From Muricea muricata (lineage: Eukaryota; Cnidaria; Anthozoa; Malacalcyonacea; Plexauridae), in contig OY979716.1 of the NCBI GenBank assembly GCA_963855995.1, positions 89,057,042 to 89,121,041 on the forward strand: a DNA stretch of 64,000 bases, given 5' to 3'. The first letter of the stretch is position 1, and each line of letters begins with the position of its first letter. The position numbers and the translations under genes were made by a program. Positions 1,153 through 47,856 of the stretch are shown piece by piece. The notes below the pieces were generated by a model, which was not told the origin of the DNA, did no database searches, and saw only the letters and a program-made list of their open reading frames with translations.

Positions 1153-1158
1153 CTTGTG

Positions 1159-1382
1159 TATGGTGGCCCAGAGCCGCCATAGCATTTTTTCTTACTTTTT
1201 TCTTAAATTTAATTTTGATTTATTTTTATTTTTAAAATAAAAACTAAAGTAAAACAAAATGCAATAAAATTTATTTGAAAATAAAATCAAAACAAAAGTA
1301 AAATAGAAAGCAATTAAAATTAAAACAAAACGCAAAATTTTCATGGCCCAGGACCGCCATAGACCACAATGCTTTGCGGTAA
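1159..1382 (+). repeat. Left terminal inverted repeat of the IS3EU-like element
   Basis: It is the reverse complement of 5693-5917 with a single 1-bp indel in an A-run. A box GGCCCAG..CCGCCATAG occurs twice in direct orientation, at the outer edge (about 1165-1182) and the inner edge (about 1344-1362), around a very A/T-rich core. The paired boxes look like transposase-binding sites (inference). Confidence 0.9.
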
Positions 1383-1430
1383 TAAATGATTTTGGGGGGA
1401 GGGGGGCTGGGCTTATTTGTCTTATTCAAG

Positions 1431-3705
1431 ATGGCGGCGTGTAGGATTAGAAATTCAACGTGGACGGACGATCTAGAATTGAAAGAGCAATTACAGACGT
1501 ACGTGAAACAAGGTCTTCAGCAGACAGAGATTTTAAGTTTTATGCGCCGCGATTTCGCTCACTATGCGTGGAGTACGAGAACCCTTCAACGAAGACTGCA
1601 GCATTTTGACATCCATCTGACTGATACAACCCTGACTGTGGAGGAGGTGAGAGCTGCAGTTTCGAAAGAGTTAAAAGGGCCTGGACGCCTCCTTGGTTAC
1701 AGGGCAATGTACCACAAGATAAGGCAAGAACATAACCTTAATGCCCCGCGAAATTTGATCCACGCACTTATGTCTGATATCGACCCGGAAGGTCTTGAAG
1801 CACGGTGTCCTGTGGGTAAAAAAAAGAGAGAAAAGGGGCATTTTGTTACGAAGGGAACTAATTGGGTGCACTCCATGGATGGCCACGACAAGCTCATGGG
1901 GTACCAAAACAGTACATTTCCCTTGGCCATCTATGGAGCAATTGACACAGCTAGTAGAAAAATACTATGGCTGAAAATCTGGACTTCCAATTCCTGCCCA
2001 AAACGAGTTGGAAAGTGGTACCTAGAGTATCTGTACGATGTACGACAGATTGCTTCACTGATTAGAGTAGACAAAGGAACCGAGACAGGGGTGATGGCAA
2101 CGATGCATGCGTATCTTAGACAAAACCATGGTGACATGAATGCAGCTGAAACTGTACTCTATGGACCATCCACATCCAACCAGGTACTTTATAGGTCAAT
2201 AGGTGGTAGCCATAGAAATAATGGATATATATTTCTATGGTGGCACCCAAGAGTATTTCTTTTATTTTTTGTATCACACACAACACTTGAAGATATATGC
2301 TGTCATTTGATAGAAAGCCATCCAATATCATTTATTATGAAAACACATTAGTGAACAATTTTATTGACATGATACACTATTTATATTTATACAGATAGAA
2401 CGATGGTGGAGAGAACTCCACGAGCGCCTTGAAAAATTCTTCAAGCAACAACTGAATTGGCTAAAAGAGCGTGGACATTATAATCCTCATAGTAAACAAG
2501 ACAGGTATGTTCGATACAGATTTTGATATGCATACAGTAATGTACTGTAGGTTGCTAGGATATAAACCCTACTTTTGCTGGTACACCACCAAAAATATTT
2601 GCATCTCTCCCAGAGAAATCTGTGTCCTTTTAGAGGTATACCCATCTTCTCCAAGAGATTGAAGTGCCCATTTGATTAAACAACATCAATATGATTGAAA
2701 TGATGAGATATATAGACTTTATGTCTGTTAATTATTAAGTATATAAAACATAAACTAGCATTAGGGTTATGTTTATGCTTTAGCACTGATATTATTGTTC
2801 TTTAACCCATGAAGCAGCAATGTGCCCAAATGCATCCCACTGTATTCTGTTACTTTTTCTAATGCCAGAAGGTTTTACTTGTGAAGGGGAAAGTTGTGGG
2901 TTAGTATGGTACTGTATACCAATGATACAAAGGCTGAAAAACTTGGTACTCTGTCCCTCATCAGAGAGCAATATTCTCCCCTTGACAAGTAAGATCATCT
3001 AGTATTAGACAGAGTAAAAATATAAAGTAGGGTGCATCACTACTTAATTATTATTGCTGTTATTGCTTCTTCATTAAGTTGTATTTCTTTCAGGGATCTT
3101 TTGGCATTTCTAATGATCCCGGTATTACAGAAGCAATTGGATGTATTTAAGGATACATCGTGGAATGCACACCGAATCCGTGCTCAGAAAGACACTTTCT
3201 TACCAGATGGGGTTCCCAACCATATTTACAATTTCCCCGAAGAGTATAGTTTACAGGAATGTGGTATGTGTCATATTTTCACCTTGGGATAAGGTTGTGA
3301 TGGTAGAAAATACTCTGCACATGTAGTGTACCTTGTGAATGGGCAAAGTAGTGGGTATGCATTGGGTCAGATCAACCTGGCAAAATGCTTGAATCAAATC
3401 TGAAATAATCAGAGGTGCTCAAATAAATAGAGAAAATTAATGTTTATATTTTGGAAGATTCAATTTGTGCCAGATGGTGAATATTTATGTTTACATGTTT
3501 CACCTTTATCGTAGGGTGGCCTGTTACTGAACAGCAACTGAAGGATGTCGCTGAGATGTCAGAGGTTTTGGAGATTGAGCAGGATTTTGTAGAAAGTGAA
3601 TTCAGATCAATATGTGAAAGAGCCATTCCCTTCCCTGAACAAGTGGAACCTGACCAATGTGCAAATGCATATATTTATCTTAAGGATAAGTACTTGCAAA
3701 GTTGA
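1431..3705 (+). CDS. IS3-like DDE integrase/transposase, four exons
   Basis: I place exons at 1431-2183, 2395-2504, 3094-3263 and 3515-3705. All junctions are GT-AG and keep frame, giving 407 residues. The start ATG follows CAAG and precedes GCG, a good eukaryotic context; the frame is also open upstream to 1386. Residues ~20-60 look like a helix-turn-helix. Residues ~82-125 (GPGRLLGYRAMYHKIRQ) resemble the HTH_21 region of IS3 transposases. The retroviral-integrase-type fold follows, with likely catalytic D150 (SMDGHDK), D214 (RVDKGTE) and E253 (IERWW), the last completed only by splicing exon 1 to exon 2. The tail has RIRAQKDTFLPDGVPNHIY, a conserved-looking block. It should act in the nucleus on the element's TIRs. 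No frameshift or internal stop is seen, so it may be active. Confidence 0.85.
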
Positions 3706-3840
3706 TGTATGAGAAACATAAAATGAACTATTTCGTATGTTCTAGCAGATCTGCAACCATCTATATATATATATATAGTTTTAAAATATTTAGTTTTAAA
3801 AATATTGCATTGCAAGTTGCCTTGAGGGTCAGTAATTATT

Positions 3841-4019
3841 AAAAAGGCACTTTCAAAACAAACATTAACTCTAATCAGTTTTTAGCTAGTAACAAGTTCA
3901 GTTCAATGGAGTTGCCAACAAAACATGGCATTTGGTGTCAATAAAAAGGCATTTTCAAAACAAACATTAACTCTAAACAGTTCTTTGCTTCTACAAGTTC
4001 AATTCAATGGAATTACCAA
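3841..4019. repeat. Two-copy ~101-bp imperfect tandem repeat between the two genes
   Basis: Two copies, 3841-3919 and 3942-4019, begin AAAAAGGCA(C/T)TTTCAAAACA and end with AAGTTCA(G/A)TTCAATGGA. They sit between the stop codons of the convergent integrase and kinase genes, so they probably form 3' untranslated or terminator sequence. An AT dinucleotide run lies just upstream near 3762-3778. Confidence 0.7.
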
Positions 4020-5628
4020 CTAGCTCAGAGACAGTGGCTCTAAACCTAGACACTTACAGAACATATTACAAGTATGTTGCTCAATAAAATTGTTTATAGC
4101 TAAATGGGACAGGTTTCCAGCTGTAAACATGACCTCCTTTTTGTCAACCAAAATTGCTGATGCAATCTCTGGATCAAACATGTAGCCTGCACCTTGAATA
4201 TCGACAACCATGACCTGCTTTTCCGAGTGTACATAAGAGTAATGCGACAAACATTCAGCTTTTTTATGCAAATCTTCTTCAATATTACCACAAGGCAGCC
4301 CATCATTATTTATGTACTTTGTGAAAGTACCTTCAACAAATTCCTCAACACTCACACTTTCCCCATTCATGTTTCCTAGATAAATATTCTTATACTTCAG
4401 AGTTGGGCCAAAAACTCCCGACAAGTCCTCTTTCTCAATCTTTGCTTCAATTTCCGTAGCAAAGTTTTGTGCCAGATGATGCATTTGTACCACCTACAAA
4501 TGTAATAATTTTATTTTATTATGGGGTTTTTTGCATGTTAAAATAAGGAATTCATTGGGATGCTGGAAAGGGGCCATTGCCCTCCAAAATTTCTGAAATA
4601 ATGTGACAAGAATCAGGTTAGTTTTCAAAAGTTAGGGGTGAGAAAAAGAAACTTTACCCTTTTTTGGTGATTTATGATTATGGAATTTTTTTAAGCTCCT
4701 TTTTGTTTAACTTGGGCAGGGAAGTTAGTTACATGCATATGACTTGGCATAAATTATCCAAACTCCTCTCAGAACTGGGTAGGCATGGATATTTTCTGAA
4801 CTTATATTATTATTTACAAACCTTTTTGGTTTGATACTCCACAGTTTGATTCATATCCTCAATCTGCTTCACTGCTTCAGGTTTATACCTTTTAATAACC
4901 CAAGTTGCATGGGAGAAATCTTTGGTGGAAGTAGCAGCTTTATAGGCTTTCCTAAAAGCTCCCTCACCGAGAATGTCATCGCTAATATCAAATTCCACAG
5001 GGATTGGAATGTTTGACCATCTAAGGGAATGAAGGTGGAAGGAAAACAAATTTACCAACGTTGTTTTTGGTGCCACCAACCTTCCCAGTTGCAAAATGGT
5101 AGACACCGACAAACTTCGTGGAGGAATTCGGGAAACCATCTTTGACTTTGGGGGAGGACTTAGACTTCTGTTTTTCCGTTTTAGGCTTGCTTCAGGGGAG
5201 CCTTTACTTTTTGTGTCTAATATTTCTACATCCGCATCGCCTTCGCCTTCGGGGATGAAACGCACGTGGATCAGTTGTAGGTTGGGAATTTGCTTCACTG
5301 TTCTACACGAGGGACCTTGGTCACCCGCGAGAATATCACAAACCATTCCAGTCCCAATACTACTTTTGAAATGATCAGTGCAGGCTTTTTTTATGTTTTC
5401 AACCGTCATTTCGAGGTTGGAAAAATCGACAAACTCTCTCGGACCAACACGGCTGTACTTTTGAGCTTTGCCGTGGACTTCGGCACTCAAACGTTGTATT
5501 GTCAATTCCTCTCTATCGCTCTCTTGTCCTTTACCTTTTCTTGCTTTTGTGGTCTTTGTCCCACAACGTTTTTCTTTCATTGCTTTTGTAAAATTTTTCC
5601 ACGCTTCGCGTTTGTTCTTATCCGCCAT
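4020..5628 (-). CDS. Alpha-kinase (MHCK/EF2K-type) encoded inside the transposon
   Basis: Two exons, 5628-4822 and 4493-4020, join in phase 0 across a GT-AG intron (donor AAAAAG|GTTTGT) and give 426 residues. The first ~210 residues are a basic N-terminus, an unrecognised ~60-residue block (about 66-125) and a Ser/Pro-rich linker. The C-terminal half is an alpha-kinase domain: glycine loop LGEGAFRKAYKA (220-231), ATP lysine K246 in WVIKRY, EEFVEGTFTKYINN (319-332), catalytic D367 in VVDIQG, FDPEIAS (375-381), and zinc ligands H409, C411 and C415 in QHTCNMFC. Every family key residue I looked for is present, so activity is plausible. Alpha-kinases are serine/threonine kinases, often regulating translation or cytoskeleton. 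Its lying between TIRs, convergent with the integrase, makes it cargo or an accessory gene (inference). Confidence 0.85.
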
Positions 5629-5692
5629 TTTGACAGCTCAAGATAAGCGACAATAACCTGCTAAAACGGATACATCAAAAAGACAGTTCTCC

Positions 5693-5917
5693 TTACCGCA
5701 AAGCATTGTGGTCTATGGCGGTCCTGGGCCATGAAAATTTTGCGTTTTGTTTTAATTTTAATTGCTTTCTATTTTATTTTTGTTTTGATTTTATTTTCAA
5801 ATAAATTTTATTGCATTTTGTTTTTACTTTAGTTTTTATTTTAAAAATAAAAATAAATCAAAATTAAATTTAAGAAAAAAGTAAGAAAAAATGCTATGGC
5901 GGCTCTGGGCCACCATA
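5693..5917 (-). repeat. Right terminal inverted repeat of the IS3EU-like element
   Basis: It is 225 bp and pairs with 1159-1382. The kinase start codon lies only 65 bp inside it, so the TIR may supply the kinase promoter. Confidence 0.9.
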
Positions 5918-5923
5918 CTTGTG

Positions 5924-10760: not shown

Positions 10761-13130
10761 GTGGAGGTGTCCAGTGAAACAGTACAGCTTGCTAACAGTA
10801 ATGAAGAGTTGAATGAAAATGGCAAAAATGCAAGTGATACAGTGGAAATCACTAGTGTACGTATGGGTAATGTAGAAAGTGTTCAAAATATACATAATTT
10901 GTAAGTTCTCCAAGTAGATTACAAAAGAAAGTTGATATTTTATTAATCTGCTGGACACAGTTGAAAACCTCAACAAGAGATTAAAAACATCTCATGCGAA
11001 AGCGCATAGGTTGAAGAGAAAGGTACAATCGTTAGCTTTAGTGGTAAGTGAGTTAAAGAAAAAAACCTGATAAGTAGTGATTGTGCTAGTCTCCTGCATG
11101 GAGACAACTTTTTCTGGAGTTCCTAGAGAACTTATGAAAAGGTTGGTGACACAGAAGAGAAAGAAGAATCCAGGTGCGTACCCAAAAGAGTTACGTACAT
11201 TTGCCATGACCCTAAAGTTTTATTCTGCTAAGGCATACAGATATGTTCGCAAATCTTTTGATTTAGGGTTGCCAGATCCATCTACGATCAGCAGATGGTA
11301 CAACGTTATCGATGGAGAGCCAGGGTTTACACAGGAAGCATTGACAGCCTTGAAAGCAAAAGTTTTTGCTGGGCAACGCGATGGCCAGAAGGTTGTTTGT
11401 GCTTTGATGTTGGATGAGATGTCTATTCGGAAGCATGTCCAATGGGACCCCAAAGCAGGAATGCGTCGAGGTTATGTAGACGTTGGTACAAAGATTTATG
11501 ATGACTCACTGCCGGTAGCCACGGAAGCTCTTGTGTTCATGGTTGTCTCTGTGAATTCTAACTAGAAAATTCCATGTGGGTATTGGTAAATGGCCTCACG
11601 GCTGAAGAGAAAGTGAGCCTGACGAGAGATTGTCTCACGAAACTGCATGAAGCGAAATTAAAGGTGGTCTCCTTCACATGCGATGGGCCAACGACTCACT
11701 AAGCAATGCTGAAATTGCTTGGTGGCCGACTGTCTGCTGAAGATATGCAGGCATACTTCCCACATCCTTGTGATAATAATGAGAAGATCTATATTTTTTT
11801 AGATGCACGTCATATGATAAAACTGGTGGGAATTACCTGGTCAGACTGGAAAGTCTTACGTGATAAGGATGGCGACACCATCGAGTGGAAGTTTATTGTA
11901 AGATTGCAGGAATAGCAAGGAAAGTAAGGTTTGCGTCTAATAAATAAATTGCGATCAGCGCACATAGATTGGAAACCTCAGAAAATGAAAGTAAATTCGG
12001 CAGCACAGACTTTGAGCTCGAGTGTTACAGATGCTATAAAGTGGTGTGAAGGTAAGGCAATGCAGCAGTTTAAAGGCTGTGGCCAGGCAGTAGAGTTTAT
12101 TCGCATGTTCGATCGTGTATTTGATGTTTTGAATTCTAGAAATCCAAGGGCGAACAACTACAACGCGCCGATAAGAAAGACGAACTGTCAGTTCGTTAAG
12201 AAGTTTCTAGATGAGGCCTGTAAGTATGTTAAAGATCTGAAAGGCCAATCATTGCTTGTGTCACAGCGCAAAAACGGGTTTTCCAGGTTTCCTCGTTTGT
12301 ATCGAGGCAGTTCTTGGAATGGCGGGAGATCTGGTGTGTGGAGAGGACCCAGTCCTAAAGTATGTTCTGACGTACAAGATGAGTCGGGATCACCTGAAGC
12401 TGTTCTTCGGTGCTGTGCGAGCCGCTGGAGGGTGGAACAACAACCCGACGGCGTTACAGTTCAGATCTGCATAGAAGCAACTGATGATGAGACACCAGAT
12501 TACTGGAGGACAAGGAAACTGCATTCCTCAAAACGACACCGAGATGCTAAGCAATTTTGAAGACAATAGCAACAGAAAATCTTCAAGGATTGAGATCGAC
12601 CAGGTTACGATTGTAAGAAAATACGACTTGGCTTTGAGACCTGAACCAGTAACAACAGATCACGATTACTGCGATGCTCCAAACGTGATGGAACTATCAG
12701 AGTTTAAGTCAGCAGCAATATCGTATATTGCTGGTTATGTTGTGAGGATGGTACAGAAAAAATCCATTGTTTAAAATGCTTAGCCGCGTTAACGACAACC
12801 AAAGAGAAGATTCCGGACCTGTTCGTGGTGTGGAAATCGAATGGCGGTCTGAAGTTGCCCTCGCCGGGGCTACTGAAGATCTGTGAAGAAACGGAAAAAT
12901 GTGTGATGACAATGTTAAAAGTGAAGAATGGTGGACTACCACACGACACGGGATTACCAGACGCAATTACCTCAACGGTATTGGAAGCATGTGTGGAACG
13001 CGATGTGTTCAGTTCGTTAAAAGAATATATGTTTGATTCGACAGCAGTGAACAATCACGTGTTCAACTTAATTAAATGCTGCTCAAAGTCTTATGTGACG
13101 ATTCGTAGCATCATTTGGCGAAGCAGATAA
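10761..13130 (+). pseudogene. Decayed P-element (THAP9-like) transposase
   Basis: An exon-like piece at 10761-10860 follows a GCACAG acceptor. A coiled-coil stretch (about 10950-11070, ENLNKRLKTSHAKAH) precedes the catalytic region. Recognisable P-element blocks in order are FYSAKAYRYVRKSFDLGLPD (~11219), ALMLDEMSIRKHVQWD (~11401), IFLDARHMIKLV (~11795), KMKVNSAAQTLSSSVTDAI (~11983), AVRAAGGWNNNPTA (~12414) and YIAGYVVRMVQKK (~12725), with further C-terminal sequence to ~13110. Frame changes and stops break it (for example after 11562, at about 11701, around 12280 and near 12770), so it is dead. No THAP zinc-finger exon was found upstream. It is diverged from the copy at 50.9-53.6 kb. Confidence 0.85.
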
Positions 13131-20826: not shown

Positions 20827-21631
20827 TAAAGTGCCTATCCAGTAGTCAGGGAATTTGCATATTTCAATAGTTTAGGTGATTTTAAGAAGATTTGCAATAT
20901 ATTTTATAAGTCGAAAATTTGATCTTTATGTACTTTTGGGGGCCTGAAGTTGGCGATTTTTCAAAATACCGTGAGCATAAAAAACTGGGGCGAGTATGCT
21001 CCTGTGACGTCAAATCGGGAACACGCATTGATAACAAACTAGTATTCTATACTACAGAGAGGGTTGAAATATGTTTTAATCGAATTTTTTGCCGATTCTA
21101 CGGTACTTTTTCTTTGAATTTCAAATGGAAAAGTGTCTTCAAGCTTTACTGATCCAAATGACAGCCAAGCCGAATCAGAAAACAATTTTCTCGCGAGTTA
21201 TATGATGAAAGTTGAAGATGACAATGTTTATATTGGGGAATGACAACAGATGTGTCAGGGAACTCAGGGCTAGATGGTCAACCAGAGGAAAAATTCTACG
21301 GTTTTGCCTCGATGGATGTATTACTTTAGAAATATTATGAGCTACAAATTAGGATTTTAACGTCTGGCAGGAGCGATATAGAAAAAATTACCGAAAGAAG
21401 TGTAAAATACACAGTGATGAAAACAGGTATGTCCCAATATGTTATTATAAATTGTCAAGAGATTTTTGTGTCAAATACTAGACATTTACAAAACGTTTTT
21501 GTCAAATACCAGACAAATATTAAACATAAGTCACATCCATTTGAGTTCCAAGGGTGTGTTACAGTATATAGCATATAATGTACATTATGCTTGGCAACAA
21601 CACAATGTATAGGATACAAACCGAAGAAGGA

Positions 21632-21694
21632 GGTTGTAAGCTAGATAAATCCTGAGGGGCCGCAGGCCCCGAGGGATTTATCTAGCTTACAACC
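21632..21694. repeat. Perfect palindrome b
   Basis: 21-bp arms GGTTGTAAGCTAGATAAATC(C) and complement, with loop TGAGGGGCCGCAGGCCCCGA. The loop contains its own GGGCC/GGCCC stem and a CCGAGG-type box. Confidence 0.9.
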
Positions 21695-21797
21695 GACTTC
21701 TGAGACTTCTGACTTACCGACTTCTGACTTACAACACAATCAAGGAGGTTAGCTAATGAGCCGTGAATGGCAATTATACTTAGAAGCTGTCGATAAA

Positions 21798-21860
21798 CAG
21801 TCCCTGGGATTGTATATACAGTCGCTGGGATTGTATATACAGTCCCCGGGATTGCATATA
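21798..21860. repeat. Three 21-bp tandem units
   Basis: Units CAGTCCCTGGGATTGTATAT(A) at 21798, 21819 and 21840. They keep a frame open for QSLGLYI repeats; I do not regard this frame as a gene. Confidence 0.85.
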
Positions 21861-22933
21861 CAAACCCTCCTAATCATTATTCTTTTATCAACCCCGATTT
21901 CCCCTGGGAGAATTCAAAAGCCACCCCCAGCTCTTCTAACAGTTGAAGGTTTCTTAGTCAAATACATCCCGAGAAAGAAAAAACGATACCGACTTGATCG
22001 TGTTGTAATTAGTTATATTCACTGTAGCAGTATATATATCATGTTTATATATGTATATTATCATATAACATGTATATTTATCAGGTAATAAACACTCGCG
22101 TATTTAACTTTCTAGATATCTTCGGAGTGTTGCATTCAAACAGTATATACAACCTGTGTACAACTTTCTTGGCAAAAGAAGAAAACCTTTACCTGCATGT
22201 GATTATGATACAATATGGAGTAAATTTGGAGGAAAAGAATTTCAAGGTTATGATGATGAACAATGAGGAAAACACAACTAAAAATCTTTTAATATATACT
22301 GGAGTGGTACAATATTATTGACAAGCGCTATTAAGAACATTTGGAGCAAATAATATTCAAATAAGTGCAACTTGAAAATCTAATATGCCATATGTTTGTG
22401 GGGACAAGATCACGAGAATGAAGAAAAATAAAAAGAAAGTTATGTTTGTTTAGGGCACCTGATGTGTGCATAAATGTGAGCATGTTTATTTACATATTTT
22501 GCTTCAAACAATAGGCAATTAAATTTAAATTCCATCAGTGAGATCGTTGCCATGGAATTTAAAAGTAATTACGGATTAATCATGTATGAAAAAGGCAAAA
22601 TTTAGATGGGATGTATTTTGAAAAAAGCATTTGATGTCTTTTATATAATTATGAAAATATATATTCAATATCGAAGAAAATATGAATGAAGGACCATGCC
22701 GTATCACAATGTTAGGTGCACTAAACAGACTTTACTTCCTGTTTAATTATACTAACTTAGATTTTCAAGATATTCTTCTATTTTACATCTCCATATATAA
22801 AATAAAATTACAAAATTGAGAAAAAGGTTATTTTGAAAATTGAAATAAATACAATGTAGTAAAGGTGTTGAACCCTCCCCCACCCCCCAAACACATACAA
22901 TATATACAGTAATGTTGGTGATATCAGATCCTA

Positions 22934-23095
22934 TTATTGAATGGAATTATTATATACTATATAGTAAGTATTAAATTCTACTTTTGATTCTGTGGACACT
23001 TCTGAATCTTTTTTGTGGCCCTTCATTGGATTAACACATGTTCTGCAACATAGCTTCGCTTGTGCATCTTCTAGAGCGGGTGGTTGTACAGGTGC
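22934..23095 (-). CDS. Coding-like exon with a zinc-ribbon-type motif
   Basis: After a good acceptor (TTTCCTATTCAG|GCACC) the frame reads APVQPPALEDAQAKLCCRTC and then VNPMKGHKKDSE, ending at 22934. A CxxC followed by P-KGHKK resembles small zinc-binding tails found in transposon-encoded proteins. The exon lies inside the long-TIR element, so it is probably a remnant of that element's own gene. The upstream exon and downstream donor were not identified. Function unknown. Confidence 0.35.
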   Translation of the reverse strand, partial: APVQPPALEDAQAKLCCRTCVNPMKGHKKDSEVSTESKVEFNTYYIVYNNSIQ

Positions 23096-24801
23096 CTGAA
23101 TAGGAAATGCTAAAAAATGTTCAAAATTGTATAAATATAGTATATTCACTGTATATCTATTTGCAAATACATATATGAACACAAAACCATAGGAGCTCTC
23201 ACTATCTAAACAATAAATTTAAAGCAGAGTGGACAGTGTACAAGTACTATCACGATTACAAATAAAAATAGTTACCTCTGAAAATACTGAAATGTTGTCT
23301 ATAACTTTTACACTTTGGGCAATTTTAAAAATAACAGCCATTTTTCATTTCATTATTACCGAATAAATATACAAATAAAAATGCGACACTGTCCTCAGCA
23401 TAGTGGCTTTCTATAGTTGTATGTAGCAAATAGCAGTGATGTTTTTCAATCCATAAACCATACTGTATAATAATTGAATATCCATGAATCAGTACTTGTT
23501 ACAGTATATGTTAGGAGATAGGTGATCAGGTGATGTGACCTTCAGATTGATTGTCTAGCAATTCAATATGTATAGTATAGAATAAATGTCTGGTATTTGA
23601 CTTAAATATTTATATTGGGACCCATGTACAGTATAAATATATATTAAATTACCCATTTACCTGTTTTCATCACTGTATATTTTGCACTTCTTTCGGTTAA
23701 TTTTTTCTAGATTGCTCCTGCCAGACGTTAAAATCCTAATTTGTAGCTCATAATATTTCCAAAGTAACACATCTATCCAGGCGAAACCGTAGAATTTTTC
23801 CTCTGATTGACCATCTAGCCCTGAGTTCCCTGACACATCTGTTGTCATTCTCCCATGTCATCTTCAACATCCATCATTTAACTCGCGACAAAATTGTTTT
23901 CTGATTCGGCTTGGCTGTCATTTGGATCAGTAAAGCTTGAAGACACTTTTCCATTTGAAAGTCAAAGGAAAAGTACCGTAGAATCGGCAAAAAATTCGAT
24001 CAAAACATACTTCAACCCTCTCTGTAGTATAGCATACTAGTTTGTTATCAATGCGTGTTCCCGATTTGACGTCACAGGAGCATACTCGCCCCAGTTTTTT
24101 TATGCTCACGGTATTTTGAAAAATCGCCAACTTCAGGCCCCCAAAAGTACATGAAGATCAAATTTTCGACTTATCAAATATATTGCAAATCTTTTTAAAA
24201 TCACCTAAACTATTGAAATATGCAAATTCCCTGACTACTGGATAGGCACTTTAAAGGTCGAATAATTTTGTATGCGATGACTCGCCGATTGTGTACAATG
24301 ACAACCGTGTAAAATAAATCGAAGGAAATCCAAATATTTCAAAAAGATACAATTATGGAACCTCTTGCTAAAGCGACAATGGCGAGGAAGATAAATATCG
24401 TATTGATGCGAGCTTGAACCTTACACAATTTCTACAACTACAAGACGAGAAGTTTATCTGGTTTGGAAACTCGGAGAAGTTAAAAACGTTTGTACCCAAT
24501 CAGCTCAAGCTAGATAAAGGCAAATGGATCTCAGAAGCAGCAAATATGCGATTCAAAAGTACTGATGGCTCTTTTTAAACGAATTGGTATGCCAAGAAAC
24601 AGATTCTCACATTCCCTGGAAAGGAAGGTCCTCTTTTAAAAGAGAGATTAGTATCGTTTTTACTCAATCGGTGAGACACTCTACAAGGGAAAATGCTGTA
24701 AGCGAGCGAAATTTGAGGGGGAAAGATCGTTTGGGTTAATTAACATTAATTAACCATTAAAGCTTAAATTGAGTCCTTCGAACACAAATTTAGAAACATT
24801 T

Positions 24802-41430: not shown

Positions 41431-41950
41431 CTAAATATACACTTAAAATGTTTCACACCGTTTGTAATTTTGTTTATAAAGGTAAAAATGTGATTGACTT
41501 AGAGTAGGCGAATTCAAAAGGACATTTAAGTATAGAAACAAGTGGAAGGACTTAAGTTGCGAATTTGTCCCAGTGAAGAGTAGACAGCGAGACTTTTATA
41601 ACTTTCTTCGTCAGCCGTGCAGTTATCGTGGTTTTGAACTACACTGATCAATTTAGGGTAGCTTTGGTGATGACTTCGATTATACAGATATTATGCTGGC
41701 CATTGATATTTCTTATTAGATTAGGAGACCACCGATTTTAATAGCATAAGGTGAAAATCAAAGATATGTGGAAAGATTTATATTTATTTGCTATGATTGG
41801 AATTCTGAGCATCATTTTATAATTCCAAGTATGTTTTTGGACTTGGTTTCACATTGAAGGAACACTTAGTAACAACTTGACGTGTCGTCTTCGACTCAAA
41901 TTCTTCGTCTTAATTAACTTACTGCCGCCCATACTAACACTATAAACTGT
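41431..41950. other. No gene seen
   Basis: Non-coding flank of the large transposon that follows. Confidence 0.5.
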
Positions 41951-41957
41951 TGAACAT

Positions 41958-42259
41958 AAACAAGGGGGAATTTCATTTTGAGCCAATCAGCGTGTTTGTT
42001 TACATTTTCGCTATAGACCAATTAGAACGCGCGACACGCAAAAACGTAATCAAAAGCAGTGAGAAAATAGCACCTGGTTTAAAGCCTTCGGTGAGCTTCG
42101 TTTTTAACTTTTTCATTTTAAAACTTAAAAAATCTAGTTCAGCGACACCTCCTCTTTAAATTCCTCGTGTAATTTGTGGAATTTTGACCTAGAACCGAAG
42201 ATATCGACGTCGAATAGCAGCCTTTTTTGAGCACGCGAAGCAACAATTATTTCACTGTG
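41958..42259 (+). repeat. Left TIR of the RING-finger transposon
   Basis: 302 bp. The two differences from the right TIR are in GCTATAGACC (GCAATAGACC) and AATTAGAAC (AATCAGAAC). CCAATCAG and CCAATTAG CCAAT-type boxes lie near its outer end. Confidence 0.92.
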
Positions 42260-42533
42260 TGCACAAGAATTAATTTGTGTACCTGCAGAATTTTGTACTT
42301 TTATAAAACGGCTCTAAACAATTTTTCATAAACAAGGTATTCTGTGGTAACAGTTAAAGTGAATAGTACGATAGCAAATCAAAATATTCAAAAGAGCGAT
42401 AATTTTGCCGCCAGATCGAAAATTAGAACCATGCAGTAAATGGTTTTCTAGCGGCAAGCGGCGGGAAAAAAGTATCAAAAAACATCGTGTTTTTTAATCT
42501 CTACAACAGCTACTGGAAAACAGCAACGCAAAA

Positions 42534-42860
42534 ATGCCTAGGTTTAGGAGGTCTTGCAATAATCCCTTTCACGAAGAGTGGTCGTCGTCGAAAAATGACG
42601 GGGAAACAATCGTGAACCTTACAGGACGAGGTTTGCTAACTTTATCGAAGGTTTTCGGAAGTTTTATTGAGGCAGAATTGGGAAAGAAAGTTCCTCGTGG
42701 TGTAAAATTCCTTTGCACTACGTGTCTTCGCGAATGTTTTAAAAAGCGAAAATTCACCAAATTTCTCCCCAAAGATTCTTCACTCGACCTTGAAAGGAAA
42801 GTTCAAAGACAGGCATGCAAAGTTGTCATGATCAACTTTGATCAACAGGCAGACAGCTAG
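42534..42860 (+). CDS. Probable first exon: basic Cys-containing N-terminus
   Basis: Encodes 108 residues starting MPRFRRSCNNPFHEEW, with C8, H13, C61, C64 and C68 (FLCTTCLRECFKKRKF) that could bind zinc for DNA recognition. It starts about 275 bp inside the left TIR and is followed at 43251 by the large exon. The frame stops at 42858, and a classical donor is not obvious. A weak GT donor at GGAAA|GTTC or a GC donor at CAACAG|GC would each join in phase 0 to an acceptor at 43250. It could instead be a separate small protein. Confidence 0.5.
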   Translation: MPRFRRSCNNPFHEEWSSSKNDGETIVNLTGRGLLTLSKVFGSFIEAELGKKVPRGVKFLCTTCLRECFKKRKFTKFLPKDSSLDLERKVQRQACKVVMINFDQQADS

Positions 42861-43250
42861 GGTAGCTTTTTTTAGGTTCTTAATCCGCAGGAAAAATCAT
42901 CATTATTTTAAATAAACTACTGTTTTAGTTTCTGATAATTTTATGTTAATCCTTTGTAACAGAAACAAACACAAAGTCAGAGTGGGTTTTACATTGCCAT
43001 TAGGAAAGCAAAACATGTTCATTTAAAACAAATTTTTGAAGAAAAACAACCCTACATTATGATTTATTTGGTAAGTGGTACTCATAGTTATAGCACTTTG
43101 GGCTCACTAAGAGAGGGAAAGCTATAATATATTAAAACTTTATTTCAAAAAATACAGCATAGGTAAAGTGGTAAACTCCAAATTAAATACTGTAAACAGT
43201 CCTAACATGCACATGGGAAAACATGCTCTTTTTATGTAATTACCATTTAG

Positions 43251-46200
43251 CTTAGTACTTTGGATAACAATACAGAAATACCAGTTCTTATTGAAAATGA
43301 GCAATTGAATGCAAATGTTGGTCAGTCTTGCTCTGGCAATCAGCTGGGTGATGTATCAGTTTGTACAGAATATTGCCAAAACCAGCCAAACACCAGTAAC
43401 CCTGAAGAATCACAAGATCTCGAAGAGCTGCCACAAGATACTGAATACAACAGCAGTCAGTTGAGTAACGAAACGACCATAACTGTGGGTTCTCACAGCC
43501 ACACAACTACTGTCGACAGTCAGGAGTCTGTTCTATTAAAAAAACCCTCAGGAGTTAATGCTGATGCTGAATGCCAAACAACACATGGCGTTTTCTTGTC
43601 AGGTGAAGAATATGATAAGCTATTAAAACAAGCATCACTTTGCCATGATTTCAAAAATAATCTCAATAACATCAGATCACTTTTGCAAAATTTGGAAAAG
43701 CCTGAGATGAATCCAGATGGATTTCAAAAACTTTGCAGAGATTGTGGTGCTGAGAACCTGTATTTTTGTATCTATGATGCTATATGCACAGAGCAGATGT
43801 CGGATGAACGCAAAAATTTGGTTAAAGTACGTACAATGGTGATCATCTATATTATGGTATACTCACAATCGCAAAGATGTAATTCGTTCCAGATAGCTTT
43901 ATCCAGAACACTCCAGCAGTTTGGAATTAGTGAGAGGGGACTGGAATCTCTTCGCAATCTTGGTATCACTGCACACCCTCGCACAGTGAAAGCCCAGTCA
44001 AAATTGATGTCTTCCTCCCATTCTGATACCGTCCAAAGCTTCATTGAATTGGCTATTGAGAATGAGCATCTGCTTTTGTTCTTTATTGATGACTACCATA
44101 ATATTCACACACAGCATCGACCTGAAGCAAAAACACAAACACAAGCTATTCACATGACAACCCTCCTCTTGAAAGTATTTCCAGAGGTTAAAGCCATCCC
44201 CAATAATGTCGATCTTCACCCTAAAAGTCCTGTAACAATTCCTGAACTTAAAATCTTTATGGCAAGAAATATGGACAATCTTTCAAAAACGTATGCAGAA
44301 ATCATGCCTGATTGGATTGTTGCAAAATACTTTGACCCGGAAGCTGAAAGACAAAGACTGTTAGTTCACGACTATCAGCAAACTGAAAACCAGCAAATGA
44401 GATGTATGGATAACACCAAGCTTGTTGACAGTCTTGAACTACCTCTTAAATCATGTGATAATGTTCTCACAGCAGTTAAAAGAATCCTGTCTAGTGGATT
44501 AGAAATTTACCTTGATAAATTTGTTGCTCCCTTTGTTGGTGACTGGCCAATGCAGTTCTTTGCTCGACAACTGGTTTACTCCAATTCTCCCTGTTCTGCA
44601 GCTCTAAAGAATGTCATCCCTCTAATTGGACCACTCCACATCTCTTTGAATGCCAGAGAATGTATATTGCTGATTTTCCATGAGATCTTTGCAGACCTCT
44701 ACAAATTCATCTTTGGTAAAAAAGCCAAGCTAGCAAAAAAACCAAAACCCTGGAGGATCTCCCTACTGTTGGAAATCATCTATGGTGGGTGGACACTCAT
44801 ACGAGATATGGTTCTCTCAGTATTTTTCAAGTGTAAAGATATTGAGTATTTGACACTTGTCAATCTTCTTGATACCTATGTTCCACTGGTCTTAACCATC
44901 TACTCTATTGCATTTAAGTGCAACAAATACGAAGAATTTTTAGTATCATTGCTAAAATGTTGGGTCATGTGTGTCGTGTTTAGAAGACGCCACTACAATA
45001 AGGCATTGTTGGTTACCTTGTCCATATTCCATCATTGGCAAGAAAATTCCCCGACAATGTATGAAACCTTGCGCAACTACTTGGTTACACTGGATGAATA
45101 CCCAGTTGAGAACTTCCACTCTGTTCTACGAGGAAGAACCAAGGAAACAGATTCGGCAGACCAGATAGCATTTAAAGCCAAGGAAATTGATGCCTGCAAA
45201 CACATGTTACAGTCATTTCAGTCAGCATTTGTACCACCAAGAAAGTTTACTTTCAGCCGAAAGAAAATAGATGGGCTAAAGGCAAAGGCTGCTGAATTCC
45301 TGACCAACAAATTTGAGACCCTCCATGATAACCCAAACATGGCAGCTGAGCTACCAAGAAAACCAAGGCAGCCCAAGTACATGACAAAGTGGAAGCTTCC
45401 AAATTTGTTTGGTGAGAAAGTAGTGACCAACCGAGTGCTCCCTTTAGGATTTACCTCTATTGAAAATCCTCCCAACCCAGCAAGGTAAATGCTTTACCCA
45501 AGTTTGTAATAAACAGTAGAATCATTAATAGGACAACTTTAGAATACCTGATTACTAGGTTTCTTGTTATAGCAGCTTGTGCACAATCCTTATATCATCA
45601 GAAATTTAAAGTTATTTGTTTTGATCAACCTTCCAACTCTTTAAACCACATGTTTAGTAGTACATCCTTGTTTGCCCTACCAGCTATATAAAGAGAAACA
45701 AAATTCTGATATCAAATCAAGTGCCAAGTGGCTAAGTATGACTAGGTATTCTAAAGTTTTGTTTGCAGCTAGACCAAGTTAGAATATTTTGTTTGTATTT
45801 AGGGTCTTATAGGGTAGAAAGCCTACACATATAAAAATGCACAACTTGTAGCAAACCTGCATCAGACTTCTTTCACAACAAGCTTGTTCAGTGTTCATGA
45901 GTCAACAACTTGTCAACAAGATGTGACATTTTTGCATATGCAGATTAGAAAATACAATTTCGTTTATACAGAAAATGCGACTTACCTGGCTGCAAGAAGA
46001 GTAGCGCTCTATGGACGGTGTTCCGAGGTTGTGCTCATTCATTCCATGTCGAATGTCTTCTACCAGATCTCAGCGTCTGCAAGATTTGTCAAGCGACTTT
46101 GTTGTCCAAGATTGAAATTCTTGGCAAAACTGCAAACGATGCCGTCTTTAATATAAACCCCGATTCCACCGACGATGGCGACGAGGACACAAGTGACGAC

Positions 46201-46326
46201 GACGACAGTGGATCAGATGACGAGACAGAATGTCACGAGAACGAACAACCAGAACAACCAGAAAGTGTGCACATTCTGTTGCGAAGAATAAGTCTGTGGC
46301 AAAGACCAGAGGTTCCACAACAATAG
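43251..46326 (+). CDS. Large putative transposase with C-terminal RING-H2 finger
   Basis: The main exon (43251-45484) ends CCAGCAAG|GTAAAT. The next (45972-46326) follows TTTATACAG, joining in frame as AG|A. Counted from 43260 the product is ~859 residues. Residues 1-110 are acidic and Ser/Thr-rich. The core contains LLLFFIDDYHNIHT (D277, D278), PLIGPLHISLNARE, RRRHYNKALLVTLSIFHHW and DEYPVENFHSVLRGRTKETD (D612, E613, E617), candidates for a DDE-type site (inference), then PRQPKYMTKWKLPNLFGEKV. The last exon supplies a C3H2C3 RING-H2 pattern (C-x4-C, CAHSFHVEC, CKIC) and the acidic tail DSTDDGDEDTSDDDDSGSDD. RING-H2 fingers usually act as ubiquitin ligases. It should be nuclear. No frameshift is seen. 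Confidence 0.75.
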
Positions 46327-46586
46327 TGTGTCGATTCCTTTGTTTTTAACTCTCCCCAATGTTAAAAACTGTTGCATTGGAGTATAATTGCCCTTGGCTT
46401 GGGGTATAATTCGCTTGCAAGTTGTGAACACAAAAGCAAACAATATAAAGTCTTTACAAAAAAACATTCAACAATGGCCGACTGACGAGACCGGATATTA
46501 TACAAGATCTTTGCAAGACGTTTACAGGGCGTCACATGATGACAGGTATTAAATATTAACTTTTTTACAGAATTCTGCAGGTCATG

Positions 46587-46888
46587 CACAGTGAAATAAT
46601 TGTTGCTTCGCGTGCTCAAAAAAGGCTGCTATTCGACGTCGATATCTTCGGTTCTAGGTCAAAATTCCACAAATTACACGAGGAATTTAAAGAGGAGGTG
46701 TCGCTGAACTAGATTTTTTAAGTTTTAAAATGAAAAAGTTAAAAACGAAGCTCACCGAAGGCTTTAAACCAGGTGCTATTTTCTCACTGCTTTTGATTAC
46801 GTTTTTGCGTGTCGCGCGTTCTGATTGGTCTATTGCGAAAATGTAAACAAACACGCTGATTGGCTCAAAATGAAATTCCCCCTTGTTT
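46587..46888 (-). repeat. Right TIR of the RING-finger transposon
   Basis: Complement of 41958-42259 at about 300 of 302 positions. The TGAACAT duplication follows directly. Confidence 0.92.
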
Positions 46889-47151
46889 TGAACATATCAA
46901 AACATCTTACCAGTCAGTTCAGAGATACAGTATATTCATAATATTAATGATATTTTCTGCGCAAAACAAAGTTTATCATTCCCTTTATAGTATACTCAAT
47001 TGTGATTGGTTAATTTACCTACAAATAACTGCGTGCAAATATCGATTTTGCTGCAAATAACTGGTGCAAACAGTTTACTGAGCATGCGCACTTTAAAAAC
47101 GATTCGTCAGCGCGTCTTAAAAAACATCGTTCTTGTCTTAAAAATGTCAGC

Positions 47152-47610: not shown

Positions 47611-47856
47611 GGTCATGGCTTTATAGGATACCCTAAAGGTCGAAATGTCGAGAGAGCACTGGGTTTCTCACTCACTGGGACTGTATCTACTTCACCAAAT
47701 TTAGCTAAAGCGCGAGCCCGAAGGGCGAGTAATGATTGTCGCGCTACGCGCTCCCTCTTTAGCTAATTTTGGTGAAGTAGATACAGTCCCAGTGAGTGAG
47801 AAACCCAGTGGTCTCTCGACATTTCGACCTTTAGGGTATCCTATAAAACCATGACC
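47611..47856. repeat. Near-perfect palindrome f with 100-bp arms
   Basis: Arms 47611-47710 and 47757-47856 match at about 97 of 100 positions around a 46-nt loop (CGCGAGCCCGAAGGGCGAGT... to ...GCGCTCCCT). The transcript would fold into a long hairpin RNA. It starts only 27 bp after palindrome e ends. Confidence 0.95.

Follow-up and report, generated by a model that had tools for sequence, protein, structure and literature searches.

The precedents for a RING finger on a transposase are RAG1 and two subgroups of Chapaev (Transib group), in which the finger lies on the same protein as the transposase core; the 2015 paper that describes them states that no other element was known at the time to carry RING or Chapa domains (PMC4411706). 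Among Mutator-like elements (MULEs), a Ghost element contains a RING open reading frame (ORF) (PMC6446971). Dada, which belongs to the group with long target-site duplications (TSDs), lacks terminal inverted repeats (TIRs), produces TSDs of 6-7 bp and targets small RNA genes; its gene consists of several exons and encodes zinc fingers at either end (PMC3706591). The locus considered here lies in a 64,000-nt stretch of the cnidarian Muricea muricata (C1:89057042-89121041, from a 453-Mb genome in 74 contigs), called the window below, and all coordinates are positions in it. Positions 41959-46887 (4929 bp) probably hold a recently inserted cut-and-paste DNA transposon with a single gene, which would encode a DDE-type transposase of about 955 residues with a C-terminal RING-H2-like finger.

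This element shares the RING-core arrangement on one protein with RAG1 and Chapaev. The RAG1 RING sits N-terminal to its core, whereas the finger here is C-terminal and the core gives no profile match; TSDs in the RAG1 and Chapaev groups are also shorter than the 9 bp found here. The element resembles Dada in its long TSD, its multi-exon gene and its finger-like regions at both ends, yet it has 301-bp TIRs, a 9-bp TSD and varied insertion sites, and no Rfam match was obtained anywhere in the window.

The element is read as a DNA transposon because matched 301-bp ends are accompanied by 9-bp duplications at 13 of 16 sites. Its TIRs were first detected as 302 nt with 99% complementarity, the length also given in the initial annotation; comparing copies set the true length at 301 bp, starting with AACAAGGG and with two mismatches between the arms, since the base beyond AACAAGGG belongs to the target duplication. 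The left TIR (41959-42259, plus strand) begins with AACAAGGGGG, and the right TIR occupies 46587-46887 on the minus strand. On either side stands the duplicated target TTGAACATA (41950-41958 and 46888-46896), which is 9 bp long rather than the 7 bp first proposed. A scripted test of lengths from 6 to 12 found a perfect duplication, always of exactly 9 bp, at 11 of 13 distinct insertion sites, the two misses being L015 with one mismatch and L020 with four. Inspection of flanks by eye added perfect 9-bp duplications for L011 and L023 and one mismatch for L014. In this count, loci fetched twice were entered once (L022=L037, L024=L030, L015=L032, window=L025, L009=L027, L010=L029, L012=L026, L013=L028, with L031 lying within L011), and L018 and L019, which share their printed flanks, were taken as one site. 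The L024 copy was omitted; its two end repeats share one orientation, and no match to the RING-encoding exon 3 was found in it.

Related copies point to a young and numerous family. BLAST identified five further full-length copies (L009-L013), 98.9-99.4% identical to the window element, and the six copies differ pairwise by 0.28-1.08%, which, with the matched TIRs and the exact duplication, bears out the initial annotation of a young DNA transposon. Four of the six (window, L010, L012 and L013) have an open exon 2; in L011 it is frameshifted, and in L009 a stop falls eight codons short of its end. The family also includes shorter copies that share these ends (L018/L019 and L020). A search for other copies with identical ends had been recommended, and beyond these full-length copies a large family came to light. 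A protein search of the genome, in which 60 of 502 candidates were scored, returned at least 63 core matches; with the roughly 58% identical member L045 as query, 63 of 499 candidates were scored and gave at least 66. Identities over both searches range from 49% to 100%, and the core is conserved over subfamilies that are 57-73% identical. Among the scored candidates, the L045 subfamily comprises ten copies, L045 included, that are 99-100% identical across all 707 residues and carry no stop. This subfamily appears to have undergone a recent burst, because its ten near-identical copies have open frames. Collections of prokaryote (bacterial and archaeal contigs), viral and phage sequences yielded no relatives. 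No description of the family was found in the literature by title and abstract, and Repbase or Dfam may already catalogue it. A separate observation concerns L021, a 7.2-kb family copy with nested frames: a 254-codon frame with an HUH-like motif (L021:1705-2466, plus strand) and a 407-codon frame with a Tc1/mariner-like look (L021:3451-4671, minus strand), both recognized by eye only.

The element contains only one long gene, modelled as three plus-strand exons at 42534-42812, 43251-45484 and 45972-46326, which predicted splicing would join into a protein of 955 residues. An earlier estimate of a frame of about 860 residues plus a RING exon agrees with this model in that exon 2 (745 codons) and exon 3 are both open in the window copy, but falls short of the predicted protein length. 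Exon 1 has 93 codons, exon 2 holds the unassigned core, and exon 3 encodes the RING-H2-like finger, an acidic tail and a C-terminal LLxxIxxW segment before the stop. Residues are numbered from a TTG at 43260. At the end of exon 1, an alignment of six diverged copies, read by eye, shows CAG followed by GT.

Exon 1 carries C8, H13 and a CTTC pair, and these positions (C8, H13 and the C-x2-C pair) are kept in all eight aligned copies. Their spacing resembles that of a THAP finger with other ligands, but the exon-1 ORF gave no Pfam match, THAP included. This N-terminal Cys/His region may bind DNA. The same spacing is a likeness to the P superfamily, whose member Galileo also has long TIRs; the differences are that neither a THAP match (exon-1 ORF) nor a P-type match (core) was obtained in Pfam, and that the TSD is 9 bp.

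The core encoded by exon 2 is strongly conserved in the blocks IDDYHNIHT, HDYQQTE, G/ADWP, GPLHISLN and DEYPVENFHS. The residues D277, D278, E613 and E617, listed in the initial annotation as catalytic candidates, are conserved in family alignments; that list left out D428 of the G/ADWP block, which is kept in every covering row of alignment A4, L016 being deleted there. From the motif order, D277 or D278 (44088-44093, plus strand) would be the first catalytic Asp, D428 (44541-44543, plus strand) the likely second, and E613 or E617 (within 45096-45110, plus strand) the Glu. With its motifs in the order D-D-GxxH-E, the core resembles the superfamilies with long TSDs, which have a C/DxxH motif in common (PMC10045372, PMC3706591). 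GPLH would then occupy the place of C/DxxH, which lies between the second D and the E, with a long insertion preceding E613/E617. The earlier view that the core fits no nameable superfamily agrees with the Pfam and PDB searches: Pfam returned nothing credible on the window protein (best E 0.14) and nothing on two further members, and among 16 members scanned singly the best match was DUF4921 (2 members, E 0.0035). A profile search, named beforehand as a possible way to overturn that view, placed the core in no superfamily.

The RING-H2-like finger (45976-46089, plus strand) follows the pattern C-x4-C-x12-C-x-H-x2-H-x2-C-x7-C-x2-C, and the acidic stretch of the tail lies at 46162-46230 on the same strand. 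In a pattern scan of 28 loci, 23 retained the full set of eight zinc ligands with no change in spacing; many of these 23 are near-identical and so represent fewer independent sequences. Core and exon-3 distances are correlated over 13 copies (r 0.92, permutation p 0.0001), with L034 dropped for want of the pattern and with L021 and L016 contributing only about 180-190 core residues. The correlation is 0.75 (p 0.0025) in eight non-redundant copies and 0.73 when the 38-residue finger alone is set against the core. In the L022-L016 pair, the finger region has a nonsynonymous divergence (dN) of 0.16 against a synonymous divergence (dS) of 1.86; dS is saturated between the window copy and other subfamilies. 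Exon 3 is thus predicted to encode a RING-H2-like finger under selection, and comparison of copies shows the RING to be a constant part of the transposon protein. That the exon might be a chance neighbour, a point on which other copies were to decide, is excluded by its conservation in 23 of 28 loci and its divergence in step with the core, so the C-terminal exon does belong to the element, as first annotated.

Taken together, the N-terminal Cys/His region would bind the element ends, and the DDE-type core would cut and join them with the 9-bp stagger that the target duplications show. The C-terminal RING-H2-like finger with its acidic tail would most likely serve in dimerisation or partner recruitment. 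Ubiquitin-ligase activity, as in RAG1, is another possible and unproven role.

Several observations weigh against this account of the element. The expected motif reads GPLH rather than C/DxxH, and the D277-D428 gap is 151 residues, compared with 68 in Dada-U6_DR (PMC3706591). PDB gave no sequence match at E up to 10, either for the window protein or for a 16-sequence profile, and Pfam, at E up to 5, gave no transposase family for any of the 16 members. Neither AlphaFold model is usable, the mean predicted local distance difference test score (pLDDT) being 35 from 7 sequences and 44 from 33, because the alignments are too shallow; neither could show the RNase H fold that the initial annotation proposed as a check. 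A low-confidence strand appears in the second model at 274-276, directly before D277, and at these scores any fold interpretation was dropped. The exon joins are predictions from DNA rather than RNA-based, and the window copy alone has GC in place of GT after exon 1 (42813-42814), where the other five full-length copies have GT. Exon 2 of the window-L010 pair has a dN/dS of 1.36, so these close copies show no constraint since insertion, though this is expected after insertion. Lastly, five of the 28 loci lack an intact RING pattern: L030 (the same place as L024; no exon-3 match found), L032 (the same place as L015) and L023, both with damaged versions, L034, whose exon 3 matches at 48% with the full pattern incomplete, and L048, whose sequence as fetched excludes the exon-3 region.

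An addition compatible with this account, raised in the initial annotation and in our estimate less likely than not, is that the RING is an active E3 ubiquitin ligase whose targets would be the transpososome or host factors. Retention of the eight ligands in 23 of 28 loci favours it, as does the C-P-[ILV]-C pair in several subfamilies (L035, L040 and L041), C-P-x-C being common to many active RINGs. The window copy instead reads C-K-I-C, and the first pair of the finger is an unusual C-x4-C, where the RING-H2 pattern has C-x2-C, C-x-H-x2-H-x2-C and C-x2-C. Pfam RING models respond to all six exons tested, in every case below cut-off (best 0.0012, zf-rbx1, L035). The RING of RAG1 does have ligase activity (PMC4411706).

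It is somewhat unlikely that the element is a very diverged MULE or Rehavkus element, with a transposase beyond the reach of MULE profiles and the same cut-and-paste route. With a TSD of 9 bp and TIRs near 300 bp, it falls within the ranges given for MULEs (TSDs of 8-11 bp, TIRs of 14-500 bp) and for Rehavkus (9 bp, 26-400 bp) (PMC6446971), and MULEs, Rehavkus and Ghost included, likewise combine a 9-bp TSD and long TIRs with a zinc finger in the same element. None of the 16 members, however, matches a Pfam transposase model, MULE models among them, at E up to 5. The finger also differs in kind, being RING-H2-like and fused C-terminally by predicted splicing, whereas MULEs carry PHD, SWIM or a separate RING ORF; its Pfam responses come from RING models below cut-off, not from the PHD type of Rehavkus. 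Nor was the minisatellite that precedes the 3' TIR of Rehavkus found, the repeats in 41900-46950 being limited to two of 21-22 bp with about two units each.

A distant lineage related to DUF6589 or KDZ transposase-like eukaryotic proteins is an unlikely alternative, suggested by motif order. DUF6589 frames are common in this genome, where scoring 102 of 515 candidates gave at least 104 matches, and show, by eye, the same motif order (DNWD, GGDQLT, MWH, E-x2-N). Profile comparison did not extend this likeness: hhalign of the core against DUF6589 stayed at or below 0.5% probability and scored 18-22, where a reversed control (alignment A4 only) scored 18.9. With hmmsearch the DUF6589 frames gave no match, and the strongest hits (E 0.016-0.024) fell on the other strand of L058. 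The profiles are shallow (Neff 1.7), which makes this negative a weak one. Pfam gave no PF20231 or KDZ match in the 16 members, and the TSDs of Zisupton (8 bp) and Kyakuja (7 bp) differ from the 9 bp here (PMC12730594). Filing the element under DUF6589 was dropped on the hhalign and hmmsearch results, shallow profiles notwithstanding. In L055 and L056, DUF6589 frames adjoin a RecQ-like helicase frame on the opposite strand, by eye.

A bolder proposal, which we consider improbable, is that the family forms a new eukaryotic DDE superfamily (9-bp TSD, AACAAGGG ends, an unassigned core with a D-D gap of about 150 residues) with a C-terminal RING E3 ligase that evolved independently, in parallel to RAG1, and that the family has lately been spreading in its host. 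Very unlikely is a passenger role for the 955-residue protein, with the element moved by an enzyme encoded elsewhere: the AlphaFold models could show no catalytic fold, but the element has no other long gene, and this one is retained together with the same ends in diverged subfamilies, with many frames open. The preferred description is therefore of a transposon of the cut-and-paste type whose core is unplaced and whose RING is C-terminal, an arrangement for which RING-bearing transposases offer precedents and of which catalogued relatives may exist.

The surrounding window contains further repeats and remnants. A second element at 1158-5918 has inverted repeats of about 200 nt (86%) and an ORF at 1386-2348 that weakly matches an integrase core (PF24764, E 1.4e-4, under cut-off). 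A P-type transposase remnant with a TNP-like GTP-binding insertion domain (E 2.2e-27) lies at 11931-12557. A further structure, at 20827-24253, has inverted arms about 560 nt long that fall into three adjacent pieces with 90-98% complementarity. A near-perfect palindrome at 47611-47856, with 118-nt arms that are 93% complementary and 10 nt apart, lies 0.7 kb downstream of the element.

A RING-bearing transposase of this kind would join RAG1 and Chapaev as a natural example for studying the role of such fingers in transposition. Should the core turn out to represent a superfamily of its own, it would extend the list of DDD/E superfamilies, of which one published account counts 21 in Repbase (PMC10045372). 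With ten near-identical copies whose core frames are open, the system seems to have moved recently and may be testable in cells.

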